Source of the DNA: [Ruminococcus] torques ATCC 27756
GTDB lineage: Bacteria > Bacillota > Clostridia > Lachnospirales > Lachnospiraceae
Reading direction: 5' to 3'
Assembly: GCF_000153925.1 (NCBI RefSeq)
Contig: NZ_DS264345.1
Span: 310,001 to 374,000 of the forward strand
DNA length: 64,000 bases
In this document: in pieces, positions 57,274-63,790 of the stretch
Position numbering within the stretch: the stretch's first letter is position 1
Layout: every line of letters begins with the position of its first letter
Made by a program: the position numbers and the translations under genes
Notes under the pieces: generated by a model
Database searches by the model: none
Seen by the model: only the letters and a program-made list of their open reading frames with translations
What the model was told of the DNA's origin: nothing

Positions 57274-57326
57274 AAAAGAGAGTTAGGGCGCCTTCCTTGA
57301 GGAAGGCGCCCTAACTCTCTTTTATA
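57274..57326 (+). terminator. Very long perfect terminator after proA
   Basis: A 24-base arm (57274-57297, AAAAGAGAGTTAGGG then CGCCTTCCT) is followed after two bases by its exact complement (57300-57323), ending in TTTT. It terminates proA and is symmetric enough to act in both directions. The sequence 57327-57490 shows no gene. Confidence 0.92.
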
Positions 57327-57490
57327 TTGCAAATGTCATTGGCTGATCACAATGCAAAATCAATGTCGAGCAGGAAAGAGGATGGGAAATTGGCATGTAT
57401 CAACTGCCATAAATACATATCGACTTCATAAATGGATATTATTATAATTAGTGTAACAACAGCGAAAAGGTATGGAAGGAGGACAAGAGC

Positions 57491-59377
57491 TTGAAGATGC
57501 AGGAAAAATACAAGCAGTTATTAGAGGCTCTGTTGGAATCCTCAAAAGAATTTTTGAATTCACAAGAACTTGGGGAGTTGGCTGGAATTAGTCAGCGGAC
57601 AGTAATCCGATATATGAAAGAATTAAAAGAACAATCTTTAAAATATGGATTTTTTATTCATACCGTAAAAGGAAGAGGGTATCGGTTAGAGATTATTGAA
57701 GAAGAAAAATTCAGGGATGCGTTGGCGGTTGAAGAAGATGTGGAAGTGACGAAAGTACTTTTTAAATTGTTTTTCGAGCGGACATGTAAGTTGGATGATC
57801 TTGCGGAACTTTTGCATTATAGCAGATCAGGTATGTCCAGAATTATAGAAAAAGTAGAGAAAAAGCTGGAAAGAGAAGGGCTCAGACTCTTAAACAAACC
57901 GTATGTAGGTTTTTTTATAGGAGGCAGTGAAGTTTATATACGAAACTATTTGTATAAATTGCTGAAGAAAAAGTCATTAGAAGAAACGGAGAAGATTTTT
58001 CGTGTTCCAAGAGAAATGCTGGCAAAAGTGAGAAGTGAGATTGATGCGGAGCTTGCGCAAAAATCAGTGCATAAAAGGAAAGAAAATGAACTGTTCTTTT
58101 TGAAATACTTACTGATACAAAAGCAAAGGATTGCGATAGGAAAGACGATTAAAACTGACTATTTTGCAAATATCAGTCAGACAGTTCATTTAAATCATGA
58201 TATGGAAGTTGTTCGTAACATACAAAAGAGAATTGAAACATCAGTGTGTCCGAAATCTGATGAGGAAATAGAAAATATTTATCTTGCTCTTGTTTACAGG
58301 CAGGCTTTTTGGCAAAACGGATATGTAGACAGCATTAATGAAAAAAATCTTCAATTCTATCAGGATATGACAGAAAGAGCATTTCAGAGGATTAAAAATG
58401 ATTACAAGGTAGATCTGTTTCAGGACGATATTTTAGTAAACGGACTGGTGCTTCATCTGGCATCGAATTTCAGCAGATATCTTTTAGGGATGGAAACAGA
58501 AAATCTGTTTTACAATGATGTCTTGGAAAGTTATCCGACAGCGTATTACTATGCGATGGAAGTGGCAGAAGAAATTTCGGTATGGACGAAGCTTTCATTA
58601 AGTAAATATGAAATCAGTTTTTTGGGCATGCATTTTGCATCTTATTTGGAGAGAAGTCTAAAGTCGAAAAAGTGGAAATGTGCGATTATTTATGGAAGCG
58701 GAATCGGATCGGCAAAATTATTGGAAAGCAGACTGCATAATAAATATCCACATCTCGAAGTAATAGGAACAGGCCTTTTGGAAGAGGCGGGAAAAAAAGC
58801 GGAAGAAGCAGACTTTTTTATTACGACATTTCCGGTAGAAGAGCCTGAAATTATGGGAAAACCGTGGGTGAGGCTGTCGCCGATGTTGGATATTAAAGAA
58901 CAGATTGCATTGGAACAGCTTGTCGGAAATTTAGCGCGTCACCGGAAGTGGAGATATGAGAGCGTCTCAAAAATGTATTTGTATATTGATCAATATATGG
59001 AAAAAATCGAGCTGTTGAATTATTTATGTGACTTATGCAGAGAAAAAAGATTTATTACGGAACAAGAAGCAGAGGGAATTGTAGGACGCGAAAATTTGGT
59101 ATCAACAGAAATAGTGGAAGGAATCGCAATGCCTCACGGTTTGATCGAAGGAAGCAGCTTTCTTGTGTTTGCATTATTGAAAGAACCGATTATTTGGGGG
59201 AGAACATCGGTAAAGTTAGTTGTTATGGGATGTTTTCAGCGGGGAGATGAGCGTATGAAAGAAGAATTAGAATATATATTTCATCTCTTTTTGAACTTAG
59301 AAGATAAGAACAGATTGTTGTCCTGTAAATCGGCGGAAGAGATAGAACGCTGTATGGAGGTGTATTATGGCAAATAG
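57491..59377 (+). CDS. PRD-type transcriptional regulator with PTS IIB and IIA domains (MtlR/LicR-like)
   Basis: This 628-residue regulator has an N-terminal helix-turn-helix (SQELGELAGISQRTVIRYMK, then a second wing/HTH to about 165). Two PTS regulation domains (about 180-395, with conserved histidines in VHLNHDMEV and LVLHLASNFSRYL, ISFLGMHFASYLER) lead to a IIB-like domain (CAIIYGSGIGSAKLLESRL; serine replaces the usual phosphocysteine) and a C-terminal IIA domain with GIAMPHGLIEGS. It is expected to activate the adjacent PTS operon when its substrate is present. The TTG start at 57491 is 8 bases after AGGAGG; an ATG at 57497 is possible. It overlaps the IIA gene by 11 bp. Confidence 0.92.
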   Translation: MKMQEKYKQLLEALLESSKEFLNSQELGELAGISQRTVIRYMKELKEQSLKYGFFIHTVKGRGYRLEIIEEEKFRDALAVEEDVEVTKVLFKLFFERTCKLDDLAELLHYSRSGMSRIIEKVEKKLEREGLRLLNKPYVGFFIGGSEVYIRNYLYKLLKKKSLEETEKIFRVPREMLAKVRSEIDAELAQKSVHKRKENELFFLKYLLIQKQRIAIGKTIKTDYFANISQTVHLNHDMEVVRNIQKRIETSVCPKSDEEIENIYLALVYRQAFWQNGYVDSINEKNLQFYQDMTERAFQRIKNDYKVDLFQDDILVNGLVLHLASNFSRYLLGMETENLFYNDVLESYPTAYYYAMEVAEEISVWTKLSLSKYEISFLGMHFASYLERSLKSKKWKCAIIYGSGIGSAKLLESRLHNKYPHLEVIGTGLLEEAGKKAEEADFFITTFPVEEPEIMGKPWVRLSPMLDIKEQIALEQLVGNLARHRKWRYESVSKMYLYIDQYMEKIELLNYLCDLCREKRFITEQEAEGIVGRENLVSTEIVEGIAMPHGLIEGSSFLVFALLKEPIIWGRTSVKLVVMGCFQRGDERMKEELEYIFHLFLNLEDKNRLLSCKSAEEIERCMEVYYGK

Positions 59378-59831
59378 ATTGAAAAAGATGCTGACGGAAG
59401 AAATGGTACGGTTAGATCCGCCGCTTTTGTCTACACCGGAAGAAGTGATCGAATATTGTGGGAATATTCTTGTAGAAAATAAAAAAGCAAAAGCAGGTTA
59501 TGTAAAAGAAATGATCGATTCTTATCAAAGGTTCGGACCGTACATGGTAATGGCTCCGGGATTGGCATTGCCGCACGCAAGACCGGGCGGAAATGTAAAA
59601 GAACCGTGTATTAGTTTTGTGAAGTTAAAAGAACCGGTTTGTTTTCATCATCCGTGTAATGATCCTGTTTGGGTTGTGTTCGCGCTCGGAGGGGTGTCAG
59701 ATGATGGGCATATTGAGCTTTTGCAGGATTTGAGTTCTTTGCTGGCAGGTGAACGGATGATTGAAAAACTGGCAGCCTTGAATACATATGAGGAACTGGA
59801 AAAATTAATGGAAAAGGAGGCGAGAAGATGA
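59367..59831 (+). CDS. PTS IIA, fructose/mannitol-type
   Basis: This 154-residue IIA subunit has the phosphorylated histidine in GLALPHARPGGNVKEP (His70), followed by FVKLKEPVCFHHPCNDPVWVVFALGG, a standard IIA type 2 fold. ATGGAGGTG precedes the ATG. It overlaps both its neighbours by a few bases, so regulator, IIA and IIB are translationally coupled. With a UlaB-like IIB and UlaA-like IIC it forms a complete ascorbate-family PTS. Confidence 0.93.
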   Translation: MANRLKKMLTEEMVRLDPPLLSTPEEVIEYCGNILVENKKAKAGYVKEMIDSYQRFGPYMVMAPGLALPHARPGGNVKEPCISFVKLKEPVCFHHPCNDPVWVVFALGGVSDDGHIELLQDLSSLLAGERMIEKLAALNTYEELEKLMEKEARR

Positions 59832-60094
59832 AAGTTGTAACAGTGTGCGGAATGGGGTTTGGAACAAGTCTTATGTTGTTGATGTCAGTGAAAGAAAGTG
59901 GAAGAAAGTATGGGATTACAGTAGAAGGTGAGGCAACAGATCTAGGTTCTTATAAAGGAAAAAGCTGCGATTTGATTGTGGCATCGTCAGAGATTGCAAA
60001 ACAGATCGAAGCAGATGTTCCGGTGTTGGCAATTACAAATCTCTTAGATAAAGCGGAAATCGAAGAAAAGATCAGACCATATTTGAATAAGTAA
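59828..60094 (+). CDS. PTS IIB, ascorbate (UlaB) type
   Basis: This 88-residue IIB subunit starts KVVTVCGMGFGTSLMLLMSV, with the phosphorylated Cys7 in the CGMGFGTS loop. The rest (DLIVASSEIAKQIEADVPVL, AITNLLDKAEIEEKI) is typical of small UlaB/GatB proteins. It starts inside the end of the IIA gene (4-bp overlap). Confidence 0.93.
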   Translation: MKVVTVCGMGFGTSLMLLMSVKESGRKYGITVEGEATDLGSYKGKSCDLIVASSEIAKQIEADVPVLAITNLLDKAEIEEKIRPYLNK

Positions 60095-60108
60095 GGAGGC
60101 GGTATATT

Positions 60109-61386
60109 ATGGTGAATTTTTTTGTTAAATTTTTAAGTGAGCCTACAGTTGTATTAGGATTAGTGGCGATGATCGGTCTTATTGCAATGAAAAACAGACC
60201 GTCAACCGTGATTCAGGGAACGATGAAAACAATGTTGGGTTTTCTTATCTTGAGCGCCGGATCAAGTTTGATCGCATCTGCGCTGACACCGTTTAGCACA
60301 ATGTTCAATGCAGCATTTGGAATGTCAGGTGTTGTTCCGGAAGATAACGCATTAGTAGCGGCAGTTCAGACAGTGCTTGGATTTGAAACGCCTATGATTA
60401 TGCTTTTATCGTTTGTGATTAATATTATTCTGGCGAGAATTACTCCGTTTAAGTACATTTTTCTGACAGGGCATATGATGTTTTCGTTTGCGGGAACTAT
60501 GGCGATCGTGTTGGATCAGATGGGGATTAACGGATGGATGGCAGTTGCCATAGGTTCTGTTGTCCAGGGAATTTGTATGGTCGTATTTCCTGCAATCGCT
60601 CAGCCTTATACAAGGAAAATTTTAAAGACGGATGAAGTTGCATTTGGATTTTGGGGAAGTTCCCTGATTGTTTTTAGTGGATTTGTAGGTCGGCTGGTCA
60701 GAAAGAAAAATCGTGATGAAGAAACAGATACATGGGAAAAAGTGAAAGTATCGAATAAACTGGACTTTTTAAAAGATATGTCGATTCTTATGAGTATCGT
60801 CATGATAGTAGTTTATATTTTCACGGCTTTGATGGCAGGAACAGAGGTTGTTTCAGAATTGGCGGGAGGACAAAATATAATAGTATATGCTGTTATTCAG
60901 GCAATGACATTTGTAGCGGGAGTACTCGTACTTCTTCAAGGTGTCAGAATGTTTCTGGGTGAGATTATCCCGGCGTTTAAAGGAATCAGCGAGAAGCTTA
61001 TCCCCGGTGCAAGACCTGCTTTAGATGTTCCGATCTTTTATGCAAGCGGTCCGGTTGCTACAACAGTCGGTTTCCTCTGCGCGATGGTAGGCGGGATTCT
61101 TGCAACTTTGATTTCAACTCAGTTGAAAGTTGTCGTATTACCGGGAGTGATCGGATTGTTTTTCATGGGAGGCGCTGCCGGAGTATTTGGAGATAAATTA
61201 GGAGGAAAAAGAGGATGCGTCGTTGCTTCATTTCTGTTAGGATTTTTATTTACGTTGATAGTTGCGTTGGCATACCCGTTAATTGATGTGACAGGATATG
61301 GAGTGGAAGGTCTGTGGTTTGCATCAACAGATGCAATTCTGGTAAGTGTATTTATGCGTTTAATAGGAATGATTGCAGGAGTTTAA
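60109..61386 (+). CDS. PTS IIC, ascorbate (UlaA/SgaT) type
   Basis: This 425-residue membrane transporter has about ten or more transmembrane spans and the UlaA/SgaT signatures GLIAMKNRPSTVIQGTMKTMLGFLIL near residue 20, DNALVAAVQTVLGFETPMI near 84, the TGHMMFSFAGTMA region near 120, and GEIIPAFKGISEKLIPGARPALDVPIFY near 285. Members import ascorbate or related sugar acids as phosphates. AAGGAGG lies before the ATG. The downstream enzymes differ from the classical ascorbate set, so the substrate is probably another compound. Confidence 0.93.
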   Translation: MVNFFVKFLSEPTVVLGLVAMIGLIAMKNRPSTVIQGTMKTMLGFLILSAGSSLIASALTPFSTMFNAAFGMSGVVPEDNALVAAVQTVLGFETPMIMLLSFVINIILARITPFKYIFLTGHMMFSFAGTMAIVLDQMGINGWMAVAIGSVVQGICMVVFPAIAQPYTRKILKTDEVAFGFWGSSLIVFSGFVGRLVRKKNRDEETDTWEKVKVSNKLDFLKDMSILMSIVMIVVYIFTALMAGTEVVSELAGGQNIIVYAVIQAMTFVAGVLVLLQGVRMFLGEIIPAFKGISEKLIPGARPALDVPIFYASGPVATTVGFLCAMVGGILATLISTQLKVVVLPGVIGLFFMGGAAGVFGDKLGGKRGCVVASFLLGFLFTLIVALAYPLIDVTGYGVEGLWFASTDAILVSVFMRLIGMIAGV

Positions 61387-61422
61387 AAGAAAAGCGGAAA
61401 AATGAAGAAAGGCGGTATGAGA

Positions 61423-62331
61423 ATGAAATTTGCAAGAACAGTTTGCGGAGATATTCAGGCAGAGGAGATGGGATTTACATACCCACATGAACATTTGTAT
61501 GCAGTTCCGCCGACATGTCAGAAAGACAGGGATTTGGAAGTGAGCGATTATGAAGGCAGCGTAGCAGAATTAAAGCTGTTTAAGTCTGTAGGCGGACAGA
61601 CATTAGTAGAGGCGTCTACGTTAGATTATGGGCGCAATCTGTCTCTTTTAAAAAAAATGTCTGAAGAGACAGGAGTTCATGTCATTGCAACGACCGGATT
61701 TAACAAACATATTTACTATCCGAATTGGGTAGAAGAAAAAAGTACAGAAGAAATTTCCGATATTCTCGCAGACGATATTTTGGAAGGGAGAGACGGAATC
61801 AGAGCAGGATTCATAAAAATAGGAACATATTACAATATGATCCATCCACTTGAAGAAAAGACGGCAGTTGCTGCGGCACAGGCGCAGAAAAGGTGTGGAG
61901 CGCCGATCTGGGGACATACAGAAGCAGGAACAATGGGAATGGAATTGTTAGATATTCTTGCTCGGGAAAATGTAGATTTTTCCACTGTTGCTTTAGGGCA
62001 TTTAGATCGAAATCCGGATGAATATTATTTGTTAAAACTTGCTGACCGGGGAATCTATATTCAATTTGATGGACCGGGAAAGGTAAAATACTATCCTGAC
62101 AGTATCAGAGTTGCATTAATTAAGTCATTGATATCTCACGGATATGCTGATCAGCTTCTTATTTCGGGAGATATGGGGAGAGCCTCTTATCTGGAAGGAT
62201 ACGGAGGAGGTCCGGGATTTCGATATATCAAGACAAAATTTATTCCAAGACTTCTGGACGAAGGGGTGGATGAGGACGTGATTCATAAAATTTTTGTTGA
62301 AAATCCAAAGCGATGGCTGGCAGTTTATTAG
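61423..62331 (+). CDS. Phosphotriesterase-family metal hydrolase (possible phospho-sugar lactonase)
   Basis: This roughly 303-residue amidohydrolase has the PTE-family metal sites: GFTYPHEHLYAVPP near residue 18, VEASTLDYGRN, the carbamylated-lysine position in GFIKIGTYYN near 130, IWGHTEAGTMG near 165, ALGHLDRNPD near 195 and the aspartate in LLISGDMGRASYL near 245. Some PTE homologues next to PTS genes in Listeria and Bacillus open phosphorylated furanose lactones, which would fit a PTS that imports a sugar lactone; that is inference. The ATG at 61423 is chosen for AAAGGCGG seven bases upstream (alternatives 61402, 61417). Confidence 0.85.
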   Translation: MKFARTVCGDIQAEEMGFTYPHEHLYAVPPTCQKDRDLEVSDYEGSVAELKLFKSVGGQTLVEASTLDYGRNLSLLKKMSEETGVHVIATTGFNKHIYYPNWVEEKSTEEISDILADDILEGRDGIRAGFIKIGTYYNMIHPLEEKTAVAAAQAQKRCGAPIWGHTEAGTMGMELLDILARENVDFSTVALGHLDRNPDEYYLLKLADRGIYIQFDGPGKVKYYPDSIRVALIKSLISHGYADQLLISGDMGRASYLEGYGGGPGFRYIKTKFIPRLLDEGVDEDVIHKIFVENPKRWLAVY

Positions 62332-62338
62332 GGAGAAA

Positions 62339-62956
62339 ATGATGTTAGAAAGTGCAAGACTTGTCTCGATTATTCGGGAAGTGGAAGAAAAAGAAATTAT
62401 TTCGATCATAGAAGGCCTTGTGGAAGAAGGGATCAGATGGTTTGAGATTTCGCTAAGTGACGGAGAAAACGGCATGAAGTGTATCCGAACAAGCAGAAAG
62501 TATTTTGAAGGTCGGGATGTTTATATCGGTGCAGGAACAGTTAAGAAAAAAGAGGAAATTGATGTACTTTCAGATATGGGAGTGCCGTATATTCTGACTC
62601 CCGGATTTGATGAGCAGATTGTTCGATATGCATTGGAAAAGAAGATAGAAGTTTTACCCGGAGTGCTGACACCGTCTGAAGTTCAGGCAGCGGTAAATTG
62701 TGGAATCCATCTTGCAAAATTATTTCCTGCCGATGCGTTTTCCGATCGTTATATTAAAGCGTTAAAAGGTCCTTTCCCGGAGATGGATTATGTGGCGGTT
62801 GGCGGGGTAACACCGGAAAATGCAGTGAATTTCTATAGATTAGGATATAAAGGTGTGGCGGCCGGAAGTAATCTTGTTCCGAAACATGCAAAGAGGAGTG
62901 ATTTGAAAAAGATCAGAGAAACAGCGCGAAAGTATGTGGAGGTGTCCCAAATATGA
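62339..62956 (+). CDS. KDPG/KHG-type 2-keto-acid aldolase
   Basis: This roughly 205-residue class I aldolase has the Eda fold: ARLVSIIREVEEKEI, the catalytic glutamate in IRWFEISLSDGENG near residue 38, YIGAGTVKKKEEIDVL, YILTPGFDEQIVRYA, EVLPGVLTPSEVQAAV, the Schiff-base lysine in HLAKLFPADAFSDRYIKALKGP near 128, and VAVGGVTPENAVNFY. It cleaves 2-keto-3-deoxy acids to pyruvate (or its phosphate form) plus an aldehyde. The usual partner dehydratase is not in this cluster. The start is one of two adjacent ATG codons after TTAGGGAG. Confidence 0.9.
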   Translation: MMLESARLVSIIREVEEKEIISIIEGLVEEGIRWFEISLSDGENGMKCIRTSRKYFEGRDVYIGAGTVKKKEEIDVLSDMGVPYILTPGFDEQIVRYALEKKIEVLPGVLTPSEVQAAVNCGIHLAKLFPADAFSDRYIKALKGPFPEMDYVAVGGVTPENAVNFYRLGYKGVAAGSNLVPKHAKRSDLKKIRETARKYVEVSQI

Positions 62957-63696
62957 GCAATCAAGTAAAAGATATGACATGGCGGGAAGTGCAGGAGCGG
63001 TTACGTGAGTTTCCGGTAGTAATCGTTCCTATTGGATCAACGGAACAGCATGGGTATCATCTTCCTATTGGAACAGATGTTTATTTGGCGGAAGCATTGG
63101 CTGAAAAGACAGCAGAAAAAACGGGAGCGCTTGTGTATCCAAGTATTCATTTTGGGTATTCTTGGAGTTGGCGTGACAGAATCGGAACTGTAACGATCCG
63201 ACAGGATATTCTTCGGGAAATATTGAAAGATGTTGTTCGTTCTGTAGAAAGATACGGGGTAAAAATTCTTATTTTTATGAACGGACATGAGGCGAACAGG
63301 TCGGTGATAAAATATGCGATACGGGAAATACAAGATGAAACAGATGTGAAAGTGTTGGGGATGTTTTATCCGGGAATGGAAGAAATTTATGATAAATATA
63401 TGGAAACTCCGACATGGGGAGGAATGTTTCATGCCTGCGAGTTTGAAACGTCACTTATGCTGGCAGTAAAGCCGGAGACAGTTCATATGGAGCGGGCAGT
63501 GCAGGAATATCCTGTCAGACCGACTACGTACGGAATGGACAACACATCGATCGGAGAGTTGAGCGTTTCGGGAACATACGGAAATCCGGTACCTGCAACA
63601 GAAGAAAAAGGAGAGATGATGCTAGAACAGTTTACAGAAAATATATCTGCTGTTATAGAGGAATGTGTGAAGAAACTGGTTAGAGAAGAAACATAG
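62953..63696 (+). CDS. Creatininase-family amidohydrolase
   Basis: This 247-residue metal hydrolase has the family motifs VVIVPIGSTEQHGYHLPIGTDVYLAEALA (metal Glu, His, Asp) near residue 25, FGYSWSWRDRIGTVTI, ILIFMNGHEANRSVIKYA near 110 and the glutamate in MFHACEFETSLMLAV near 160. Family members hydrolyse creatinine, formamides or cyclic keto-inositols; here a sugar-derived amide or ring is possible. Its start overlaps the aldolase gene stop (ATGA), so it belongs to the PTS operon. No specific substrate is claimed. Confidence 0.87.
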   Translation: MSNQVKDMTWREVQERLREFPVVIVPIGSTEQHGYHLPIGTDVYLAEALAEKTAEKTGALVYPSIHFGYSWSWRDRIGTVTIRQDILREILKDVVRSVERYGVKILIFMNGHEANRSVIKYAIREIQDETDVKVLGMFYPGMEEIYDKYMETPTWGGMFHACEFETSLMLAVKPETVHMERAVQEYPVRPTTYGMDNTSIGELSVSGTYGNPVPATEEKGEMMLEQFTENISAVIEECVKKLVREET

Positions 63697-63719: not shown

Positions 63720-63790
63720 AAAAATATCGGAAATCGAACCGTAAGCTGAAGTTTAATTCGGAGAGCGTCTCGATTTCCGATATTTTTTGT
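63720..63790 (+). terminator. Terminator after the creatininase-family gene
   Basis: AAAAATATCGGAAATCGA (63720-63737) pairs with TCGATTTCCGATATTTTT (63770-63787) around a 32-base loop that has some internal pairing. Confidence 0.85.

Follow-up and report, generated by a model that had tools for sequence, protein, structure and literature searches.

The DNA analysed here, to which we refer as the window, is a stretch of 64,000 nucleotides from [Ruminococcus] torques ATCC 27756 (contig NZ_DS264345.1, positions 310,001 to 374,000), whose genome assembly is 98.95% complete in 41 contigs. At positions 57491-63696 of the window, seven open reading frames (ORFs), all on the + strand, overlap or, with the starts as listed, lie at most 15 bp apart. 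They encode a regulator, the components of a phosphotransferase system (PTS), a phosphotriesterase homologue (PTE), an aldolase (ALD), and a creatininase-family enzyme (CRE), and we consider here whether together they may form a catabolic route for a sugar lactone. All seven predicted proteins score above the curated Pfam cut-offs (HTH_11/Mga/PRD/EIIA_2, EIIA_2, PTS_IIB, EIIC-GAT, PTE, KDPG/KHG aldolase, and Creatininase, in gene order). Both coordinates and Pfam matches thus agree with the initial annotation of the region, made from the letters alone, which had described one operon-like unit of seven close or overlapping genes with its own PRD regulator. Against NCBIfam, PTE, ALD, and CRE each score below the cut-off of every model listed.

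The first gene (57491..59377, with a TTG start or an ATG start at 57497) encodes a PRD-type transcriptional regulator with HTH_11, Mga, PRD, and EIIA_2 domains. The PTS genes follow: EIIA (59367..59831; EIIA_2, PF00359, 100.3 bits, with a PHAR motif seen by eye), EIIB (59828..60094; PF02302, 51.7 bits, with the cysteine of a CGMG motif near the N terminus, again by eye), and a UlaA-type EIIC (60109..61386; PF03611, 382 bits). The nearest NCBIfam models for EIIB are ascorbate IIBC/IIB models, matched below cut-off. EIIC reaches 420 bits over a cut-off of 380 for PRK09410.1-1, “PTS ascorbate transporter subunit IIC”, and is the sole EIIC-GAT match in the genome. The other operon genes belong to other families, and the earlier description of a UlaA-type PTS without UlaD, UlaE, UlaF, or UlaG therefore stands. 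The ascorbate ula pathway as such was rejected, as there are no Ula enzymes in the operon.

The PTE gene (61402..62331; its start may lie 15 or 21 bp later, at 61417 or 61423) encodes the only PF02126 match in the genome (222 bits), a predicted phosphorylated-lactone lactonase. Its closest solved relative is 3pnz (E 9e-78, 44% identical), which we take to be Lmo2620, a phosphorylated sugar-lactone lactonase; in work by Xiang in 2012, Lmo2620 reportedly hydrolysed D-lyxono- and L-ribono-1,4-lactone 5-phosphate. In an alignment of 17 sequences, one of them a near-identical homologue of 3pnz, the metal-site positions H29, H31, K139, H172, H200, and D257 are invariant in all 17, and so are K227, K229, R260, and Y263, which align with K242, K244, R275, and Y278 of 3pnz. 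Lys242, Lys244, Arg275, and Tyr278 are presumably the distal phosphate ligands of Lmo2620, and the metal-ligand roles are likewise presumed; by hand count, positions 242, 244, 275, and 278 of the 3pnz sequence are K, K, R, and Y. The PTE scores 185.1 against the phospho-furanose lactonase model NF045706, below the cut-off of 630. Because of the kinship with 3pnz, the retained metal- and phosphate-site residues, and the pairing of a PTE-family lactonase with UlaABC in Mycoplasma, a phosphorylated-lactone lactonase is the best reading of this protein, and sequence comparison makes lactonase activity probable.

The ALD gene (62339..62956) likewise encodes the only match to its family in the genome (PF01081, KDPG/KHG family, 133.1 bits over 27.8). 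The lysine of its KLFPA motif, presumably the Schiff-base lysine, is kept in the 11 sequences printed from the alignment, and the protein falls below the cut-off of the Eda subfamily model TIGR01182 (145.3, cut-off 156.05). In other operons with PTE and CRE, the aldolase slot is filled by proteins of several kinds: that of locus L108 lies over the eda cut-off (174.7 over 156.05), those of L114 and L115 are only ~27-32% identical to the window ALD, and a KDGP-type aldolase occupies the slot in L125 (PF07071) and L126 (by annotation, with an NCBIfam match below cut-off). Going by these identities, the pattern suggests that aldolases of differing types were recruited independently. KDPG- and KDGP-type aldolases share the cleavage of 2-keto-3-deoxy-aldonate phosphates, and since this is the common known activity of the different aldolases in the slot, such a compound is the likely substrate; that ALD acts on a keto-deoxy acid phosphate is accordingly a good bet. 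A KDGP-family search returned zero in the window's own genome but also zero in all control genomes, and is uninformative. The phosphorylated lactone and keto-deoxy acid phosphate suggested in the initial annotation are still the best intermediates.

The last gene (62953..63696) encodes CRE (PF02633, 233.5 bits over 31.3). Its metal-site residues E31, H33, D42, H112, and E165 are invariant in 19 sequences, and it has an invariant Y-S-W-x-W segment of its own at residues 69-73. The AlphaFold2 (AF2) model (mean pLDDT 90) compares with creatininase 1q3k at Z 27.4 and a root-mean-square deviation of 2.3 over 241 residues. When the model was compared with the PDB, the clear matches were creatininases only. 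Lumazine synthase (Z 9.3) and the N-domain of dihydroxyacid dehydratase (Z 8.7) come next, matches such as a common arrangement produces, and we draw nothing from the dehydratase row. CRE scores 156.9 against the creatininase model TIGR04448 (cut-off 235) and 113.4 against the model for IolN, 3-dehydro-scyllo-inosose hydrolase (NF041098, cut-off 245), and it is below the cut-off of the MftE model. The glutamate aligned with E122 of creatininase, which we take to be functional there, is missing: the window protein has Ala, and the lactone-linked relatives printed have Ala, Ser, or Gly. Creatinine metabolism was rejected on these two grounds, the score below the creatininase cut-off and the absent glutamate.

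No IlvD/Edd- or enolase-superfamily dehydratase was found among the seven operon genes. Elsewhere, the genome holds one IlvD/Edd-family protein, no UxuA match, and a single MR_MLE_C match (33.5 vs cut-off 29.4) that is probably enolase. Because a keto-deoxy acid aldolase comes next, CRE would have to supply the formation of the keto-deoxy acid, and with a probability of about 0.45 we propose that the operon is devoted to the catabolism of a sugar gamma-lactone via PTS, PTE, CRE, and ALD. The UlaABC-type PTS would import the lactone and phosphorylate its terminal hydroxyl; we regard this import step as very likely. PTE would act as a metal-dependent lactonase, binding phosphate in a pocket at a second site, and opening of the lactone would yield an aldonate phosphate. 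This acid would then be converted by CRE, a metal enzyme of the creatininase fold, to a 2-keto-3-deoxy-aldonate phosphate, most simply by dehydration, so that CRE would stand where an Edd- or DgoD-type dehydratase acts in other routes. ALD would split that product into pyruvate and a phosphorylated aldehyde, namely glyceraldehyde 3-phosphate from a hexonate or glycolaldehyde phosphate from a pentonate, and the PRD/EIIA regulator would tie expression to PTS flux. Gene content, conservation, metal- and phosphate-site residues, and a distribution largely complementary to that of DgoD/UlaD are the observations from which we infer every reaction. Hexonolactones such as D-mannono- and L-gulono-1,4-lactone 6-phosphate would fit the C2/C3 configuration of the reported in vitro substrates of Lmo2620, and the D-mannono form would give 2-keto-3-deoxy-6-phosphogluconate (KDPG). 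The dehydratase role of CRE, read from the position of the enzyme in the scheme, has slightly less than an even chance. A shade less likely again is the fuller claim that CRE is the first creatininase-fold aldonate phosphate dehydratase, within a minimal three-enzyme, PTS-fed “lactone Entner-Doudoroff” route spread across Bacillota into actinomycetes.

A neighbourhood survey, which the initial annotation had suggested as a check, was run as a PTE scan of a species-genome collection. It gave 31 loci, and in 22 of these IIA, IIB, IIC, PTE, ALD, and CRE were all matched. The full sets, which this gut bacterium shares with soil and food bacteria, include Lachnospiraceae, Hungatella, Clostridium, Sporosalibacterium, Listeria, Enterococcus, and Vagococcus, and also Paenibacillus, Brevibacillus, Lentibacillus, Pullulanibacillus, Cryobacterium, and a Coprothermobacteraceae bacterium; among them, the IIC of L105, the PTE of L122, and the regulator of L100 are in pieces, and the ALD of L100 is partial. 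No UlaG, UlaD, or UlaE match was found near PTE in the 22 full orthologous sets. As for the remaining nine loci, the contig of L096 ends after PTE, L102 (Rubrobacter) and L113 (Cryobacterium) have CRE with no aldolase found, L117-L121 have no CRE match, and L123 is distant. At closer range, carriers are scattered: of 397 genomes of the family, 4 have a PTE that reaches 78% identity, counting the genome of the window, and none at that level was found in G580, the one other genome listed from the genus. Regulator type varies, by eye, from PRD in Lachnospiraceae-type loci to GntR in several others. Transport varies too: in Alicyclobacillus dauci, PTE, CRE, and a KDGP aldolase are accompanied by an ABC transporter and by a gene whose annotation is xylulokinase.

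PTE, CRE, ALD, and IIC diverge in a correlated manner across 21 loci (Mantel r 0.69 to 0.905, with 0 of 2000 permutations as high). CRE tracks the divergence of PTE (r 0.895, again 0/2000) about as closely as the permease does (0.905). Chance clustering was rejected, as the gene set recurs across loci and the divergences of its proteins run parallel. These data also bear on the idea that the operon is an ordinary lactone or ascorbate operon in which CRE is an accessory enzyme of repair or detoxification, while a housekeeping enzyme elsewhere dehydrates or decarboxylates. Reactive keto acids could require repair enzymes, and the genome does have its one IlvD/Edd-family gene outside the operon. 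We nevertheless consider an accessory CRE quite improbable, given that CRE diverges with PTE in the manner of the permease and that, among the 24 loci whose PTE reaches 59% identity, 23 have CRE and the other, L096, is cut by its contig end; the lack of a UxuA match and the marginal, probably enolase, MR_MLE_C match count against it as well.

The proposed route, with CRE in the dehydratase slot, has two parallels in which a recognised dehydratase is present. The Enterococcus faecium plasmid pHVH-V1836-3 (NZ_CP044267, locus L157, read whole) encodes a PRD regulator with an EIIA domain, a PF01081 aldolase, GAT-type IIB and IIC, a DgoD (PRK14017, 612 over a cut-off of 311), and PTE. A 14.6-kb contig of the Lachnospiraceae genome G631 (L083) encodes PTE, a sigma54-type regulator with an EIIA domain, a PF01081 aldolase, IIA, IIB (by eye), IIC, and a DgoD (597 over 311). 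No CRE match was found in either operon. The initial annotation had noted both a missing dehydratase and a creatininase-family enzyme without a place; with DgoD present and CRE absent in two parallel operons, these two puzzles may answer each other. As a separate observation, the E. faecium plasmid is 13.7 kb long and carries IS elements, possibly making it a mobile sugar-lactone trait.

For co-occurrence counts we used the 71 PTE clusters whose surroundings were fetched, leaving out L073-L075 (the same places as L101, L097, and L099) and the distant L123. UlaD and DgoD both act directly on the lactonase product. Within 6 kb on the same strand, a UlaD or DgoD match occurs in 0/35 clusters with CRE vs 8/36 without it (Fisher 0.003; 8/35 once the contig-cut L096 is dropped), and at 8 kb in 2/35 vs 8/36 (Fisher 0.047). 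The Fisher values are only a guide, because the clusters share kinship and were retrieved through their resemblance to proteins of the window, with no correction for kinship or retrieval bias. In 28 of the 36 clusters lacking CRE there is neither a UlaD nor a DgoD match, and CRE and UlaD never occur together within 10 kb in the 71 clusters. CRE and DgoD/UlaD are thus largely complementary in distribution. Where a UlaA-type IIC lies within 6 kb, a KDPG or KDGP aldolase is found in 24/31 clusters with CRE and in 0/7 without; those seven include the contig-cut L096 and exclude L127 and L083, whose IICs are of GAT type and so escaped the IIC match. For L127, the cluster from E. faecium, no aldolase was scored because the gene spans the start of the record, and the aldolase is present in the whole record.

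The mutual absence of CRE and UlaD within 10 kb in these clusters would also suit an ascorbate-type chemistry, in which an enediol lactone is opened to a 3-keto-aldonate phosphate and CRE works on this beta-keto acid. CRE would then be either an isomerase yielding the 2-keto acid, for ALD to split into hydroxypyruvate and glyceraldehyde 3-phosphate, or a C-C hydrolase of the IolN kind. The UlaA-type PTS and the CRE relatives that adjoin UlaG are in keeping with it (the UlaG of L135 reaches 607.9, cut-off 306, with the model for ascorbate-6-phosphate lactonase), as is the replacement of UlaG by PTE in Mycoplasma ula operons, proposed in two papers (PMC11092275, PMC4866288). We judge this chemistry unlikely all the same: CRE reaches only 113.4 where IolN would call for 245, the activity that KDPG and KDGP aldolases share is keto-deoxy acid cleavage and not hydroxypyruvate release, and DgoD, twice in the place of CRE, has to our knowledge no action on 3-keto acids.

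Several observations weigh against a dehydratase route. Most of the 22 full clusters belong to a single orthologous group, so the counts above are not independent. The DgoD parallel is not exact, since the PTEs linked to DgoD are without the K-x-K pair and in one of them K replaces the arginine. Just past the 6-kb limit, genes only 30-31% identical to DgoD do lie near CRE in L112 (6.5 kb) and L080 (7.0 kb); these are the two CRE loci that gain a match when the range is widened to 8 or 10 kb, and they leave our estimates unchanged. No KDPG or KDGP aldolase match was found in seven of the 31 clusters that combine CRE with a UlaA-type IIC (L102, L113, L082, L081 with a SIS gene, and L076, L077, and L079 with BtpA genes). 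We know of no creatininase-fold dehydratase, and our literature search showed none. Finally, in a CRE tree (leaving out L073-L075, L144, L004, L056, L058, and L132), relatives in the same 40-row group (support 87/70, single in 86% of bootstrap trees) come from PTS operons with UlaG in which no pyruvate aldolase was found (L133, L135, and L136). One tip of this tree, L102b, is labelled ALD_PTE_PTS though no aldolase was found there, which leaves the tested grouping unaffected. Pyruvate aldolase matches were likewise absent for further members of the group, where CRE adjoins PTE, PTS, and BtpA genes (L076, L077, and L079) and where PTE and CRE stand with an ABC transporter, an FGGY kinase, and a D-serine-dehydratase-like pyridoxal phosphate (PLP) enzyme (L032, L078, and L080). 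The UlaG, BtpA, and PLP contexts suit an amidohydrolase or a beta-keto acid enzyme as well as a dehydratase, or better. It is because of these contexts and the imperfect DgoD parallel that we hold the dehydratase reading just short of even.

The contexts with PLP enzymes raise the further idea that CRE is an amidohydrolase acting on an N-substituted lactone, for example an ascorbate-shaped 2-acylamino-2,3-unsaturated (enono) lactone. PTE would open the lactone, CRE would deacylate it, the enamine would collapse to a 2-keto-3-deoxy acid phosphate and ammonia, and ALD would cleave the product, so that a dehydratase is unneeded and each enzyme keeps the chemistry of its family. PTE and CRE occur with a RidA-like gene (by eye) in L032 and L078, RidA being an enamine/imine deaminase family; the D-serine-dehydratase-like PLP enzyme of L032, L078, and L080, the ArgE/DapE-family deacylase of L078, and the SIS, NagA, and NagB genes that adjoin the set in L115 point the same way. 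On the other hand, PLP or RidA protein matches lie within 6 kb in 0/22 full sets, CRE falls short of the creatininase cut-off and has no glutamate where creatininase has E122, a plain hydroxy acid would better suit the two operons that carry DgoD instead of CRE, and the compound class is a guess. An N-acyl substrate therefore seems doubtful to us, and we continue with the plain sugar lactone and a dehydrating CRE as the preferred reading.

Some of these loci are of note in themselves. L133, L135 (6035-12300), and L136 (5703-13747) combine UlaG-UlaABC with CRE and have no UlaD or UlaE match, and may represent a second ascorbate-like route; a UROD-like gene is found in L135 and L136, and a UlaF-like epimerase in L136. 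The ABC-transporter operons with PTE, CRE, FGGY kinase, and PLP enzyme in L032 (2759-12956), L078 (3050-14554), and L080 (2763-13996) also hold, by eye, an MBL-fold protein, and perhaps handle a nitrogen-bearing sugar acid. In L076, L077, and L079, one or two BtpA/SgcQ-family genes lie beside PTE, CRE, and a UlaA-type PTS. In L140 (6979-14401), BtpA-like and creatininase-family genes are followed by what looks by eye like a nucleoside-type ABC transporter and by a nucleoside hydrolase identified by Pfam, and in L138, L139, and L141 more distant creatininase-family genes adjoin C-N hydrolase-like and RraA-like genes (by eye). The Rubrobacter locus L102 (7537-14729) holds PTE, CRE, a IIB match, a UlaA-type IIC, a YhfZ-type regulator, a partial UxaC-like gene, and a D-mannonate oxidoreductase-like SDR, neighbours that may connect these genes with the metabolism of uronates or mannonate.

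As to the limits of the operon in the window, a terminator-like hairpin after the preceding gene (57277..57320, +, 20-bp stem, T-rich tail) marks the upstream boundary. It is followed by a possible promoter, TCGACT-17-TATAAT (57420..57448, +), picked out by a consensus scan in which promoter-like sites were not enriched (13 in the region vs 17.9 in shuffles). Downstream, a terminator-like inverted repeat with 14-bp arms and a T-run (63724..63783, +, by eye) precedes argC, the next gene (named by eye). The spacing of the seven genes, the one promoter-like site upstream, and the inverted repeat with T-run downstream suggest co-transcription. A scan for catabolite-repression sites gave 18 matches vs 12.8 expected and none within the operon. 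A signature of recent acquisition was sought in the GC content, and the operon bins (0.39-0.41 vs 0.40-0.45 in the preceding 18 kb) are not telling. Past argC, the genome encodes large proteins of LPXTG/pilin-like character, along with a pair of sortase-like genes (by eye; L002, 4535-10691).

If the proposed route is correct, what is annotated in gut and food bacteria as “phosphotriesterase”, “creatininase”, and “ascorbate PTS” would resolve into one sugar-lactone pathway, and a hydrolase fold would gain a lyase reaction. It would also offer a functional reading of the Listeria operon lmo1968-1974 and its sister operon, which, in the available parts of the expression papers, appear without a substrate.

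The L. monocytogenes operon lmo1968-lmo1974 is the orthologous one; it was matched by its annotations to L124 from strain NCTC7974, not by comparison with the EGD-e sequence. L124 runs GntR regulator, IIA, IIB, IIC, PTE (63%), aldolase, CRE (53%), the same genes in the same order as in the window bar the regulator, which is GntR instead of PRD. The NCTC7974 aldolase is in two pieces and not annotated, and its split KDPG aldolase match (L124, 7912-8551) possibly reflects a frameshift. In print, lmo1968-1974 is annotated as creatinine amidohydrolase, KDPG/KHG aldolase, and ascorbate-type PTS, among accessory or lineage-specific genes (PMC3692452, PMC2996996); an lmo1971 transposon mutant, in what is called a “pentitol PTS”, is reported to be attenuated or to grow poorly in epithelial cells (PMC3464598), and the operon appears in expression results (PMC3443086, PMC10580955). 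The initial annotation had named an orthologous cluster with a defined substrate as the finding that would tell against it, and the passages of these papers that we consulted name no substrate for lmo1968-1974 beyond annotation. Our literature search found no paper joining PTE, creatininase, and KDPG aldolase into a pathway. The claim of an undescribed pathway is thereby upheld in that no assigned pathway was found in the papers searched, and cut back in that the gene set was already in print as lmo1968-1974.

A second Listeria operon is that of Lmo2620, presumably lmo2645-2652 in EGD-e numbering. Its counterpart in L125 of L. monocytogenes, with a PTE nearly identical to 3pnz, is ordered regulator-IIA-IIB-IIC-PTE-CRE-KDGP aldolase-SIS. 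The window operon shares with this type the PTS, PTE, CRE, a pyruvate-type aldolase, and the same metal and phosphate residues in PTE, but the Lmo2620-type operon has a KDGP (PF07071) aldolase and a SIS-domain gene, and its CRE lies in another branch of the tree. With E. coli ula the window operon has in common the EIIC family and, on the proposed reading, the lactone substrate and the lactonase step; it differs in lacking UlaG, UlaD, UlaE, and UlaF, in using a lactonase of another fold, and in having an aldolase for a decarboxylase. Reportedly, a Mycoplasma lactonase of the MS53_0025 type was described by Korczynska in 2014, a study to which PMC11092275 refers. The Mycoplasma ula operons resemble the window operon in pairing a UlaABC PTS with a PTE-family lactonase, proposed in two papers as a replacement for UlaG (PMC11092275, PMC4866288), and differ in that UlaD/E/F follow and that CRE or a KDPG aldolase is not annotated. 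The E. faecium pHVH-V1836-3 operon is alike in its PTS, PTE, KDPG-family aldolase, and PRD regulator, and differs in having DgoD for CRE, GAT-type IIB and IIC, and a PTE without the K-x-K pair. Set beside these systems, the gene set, known as annotation and with no pathway assignment found, takes its place as a variant of PTS-fed lactone catabolism.

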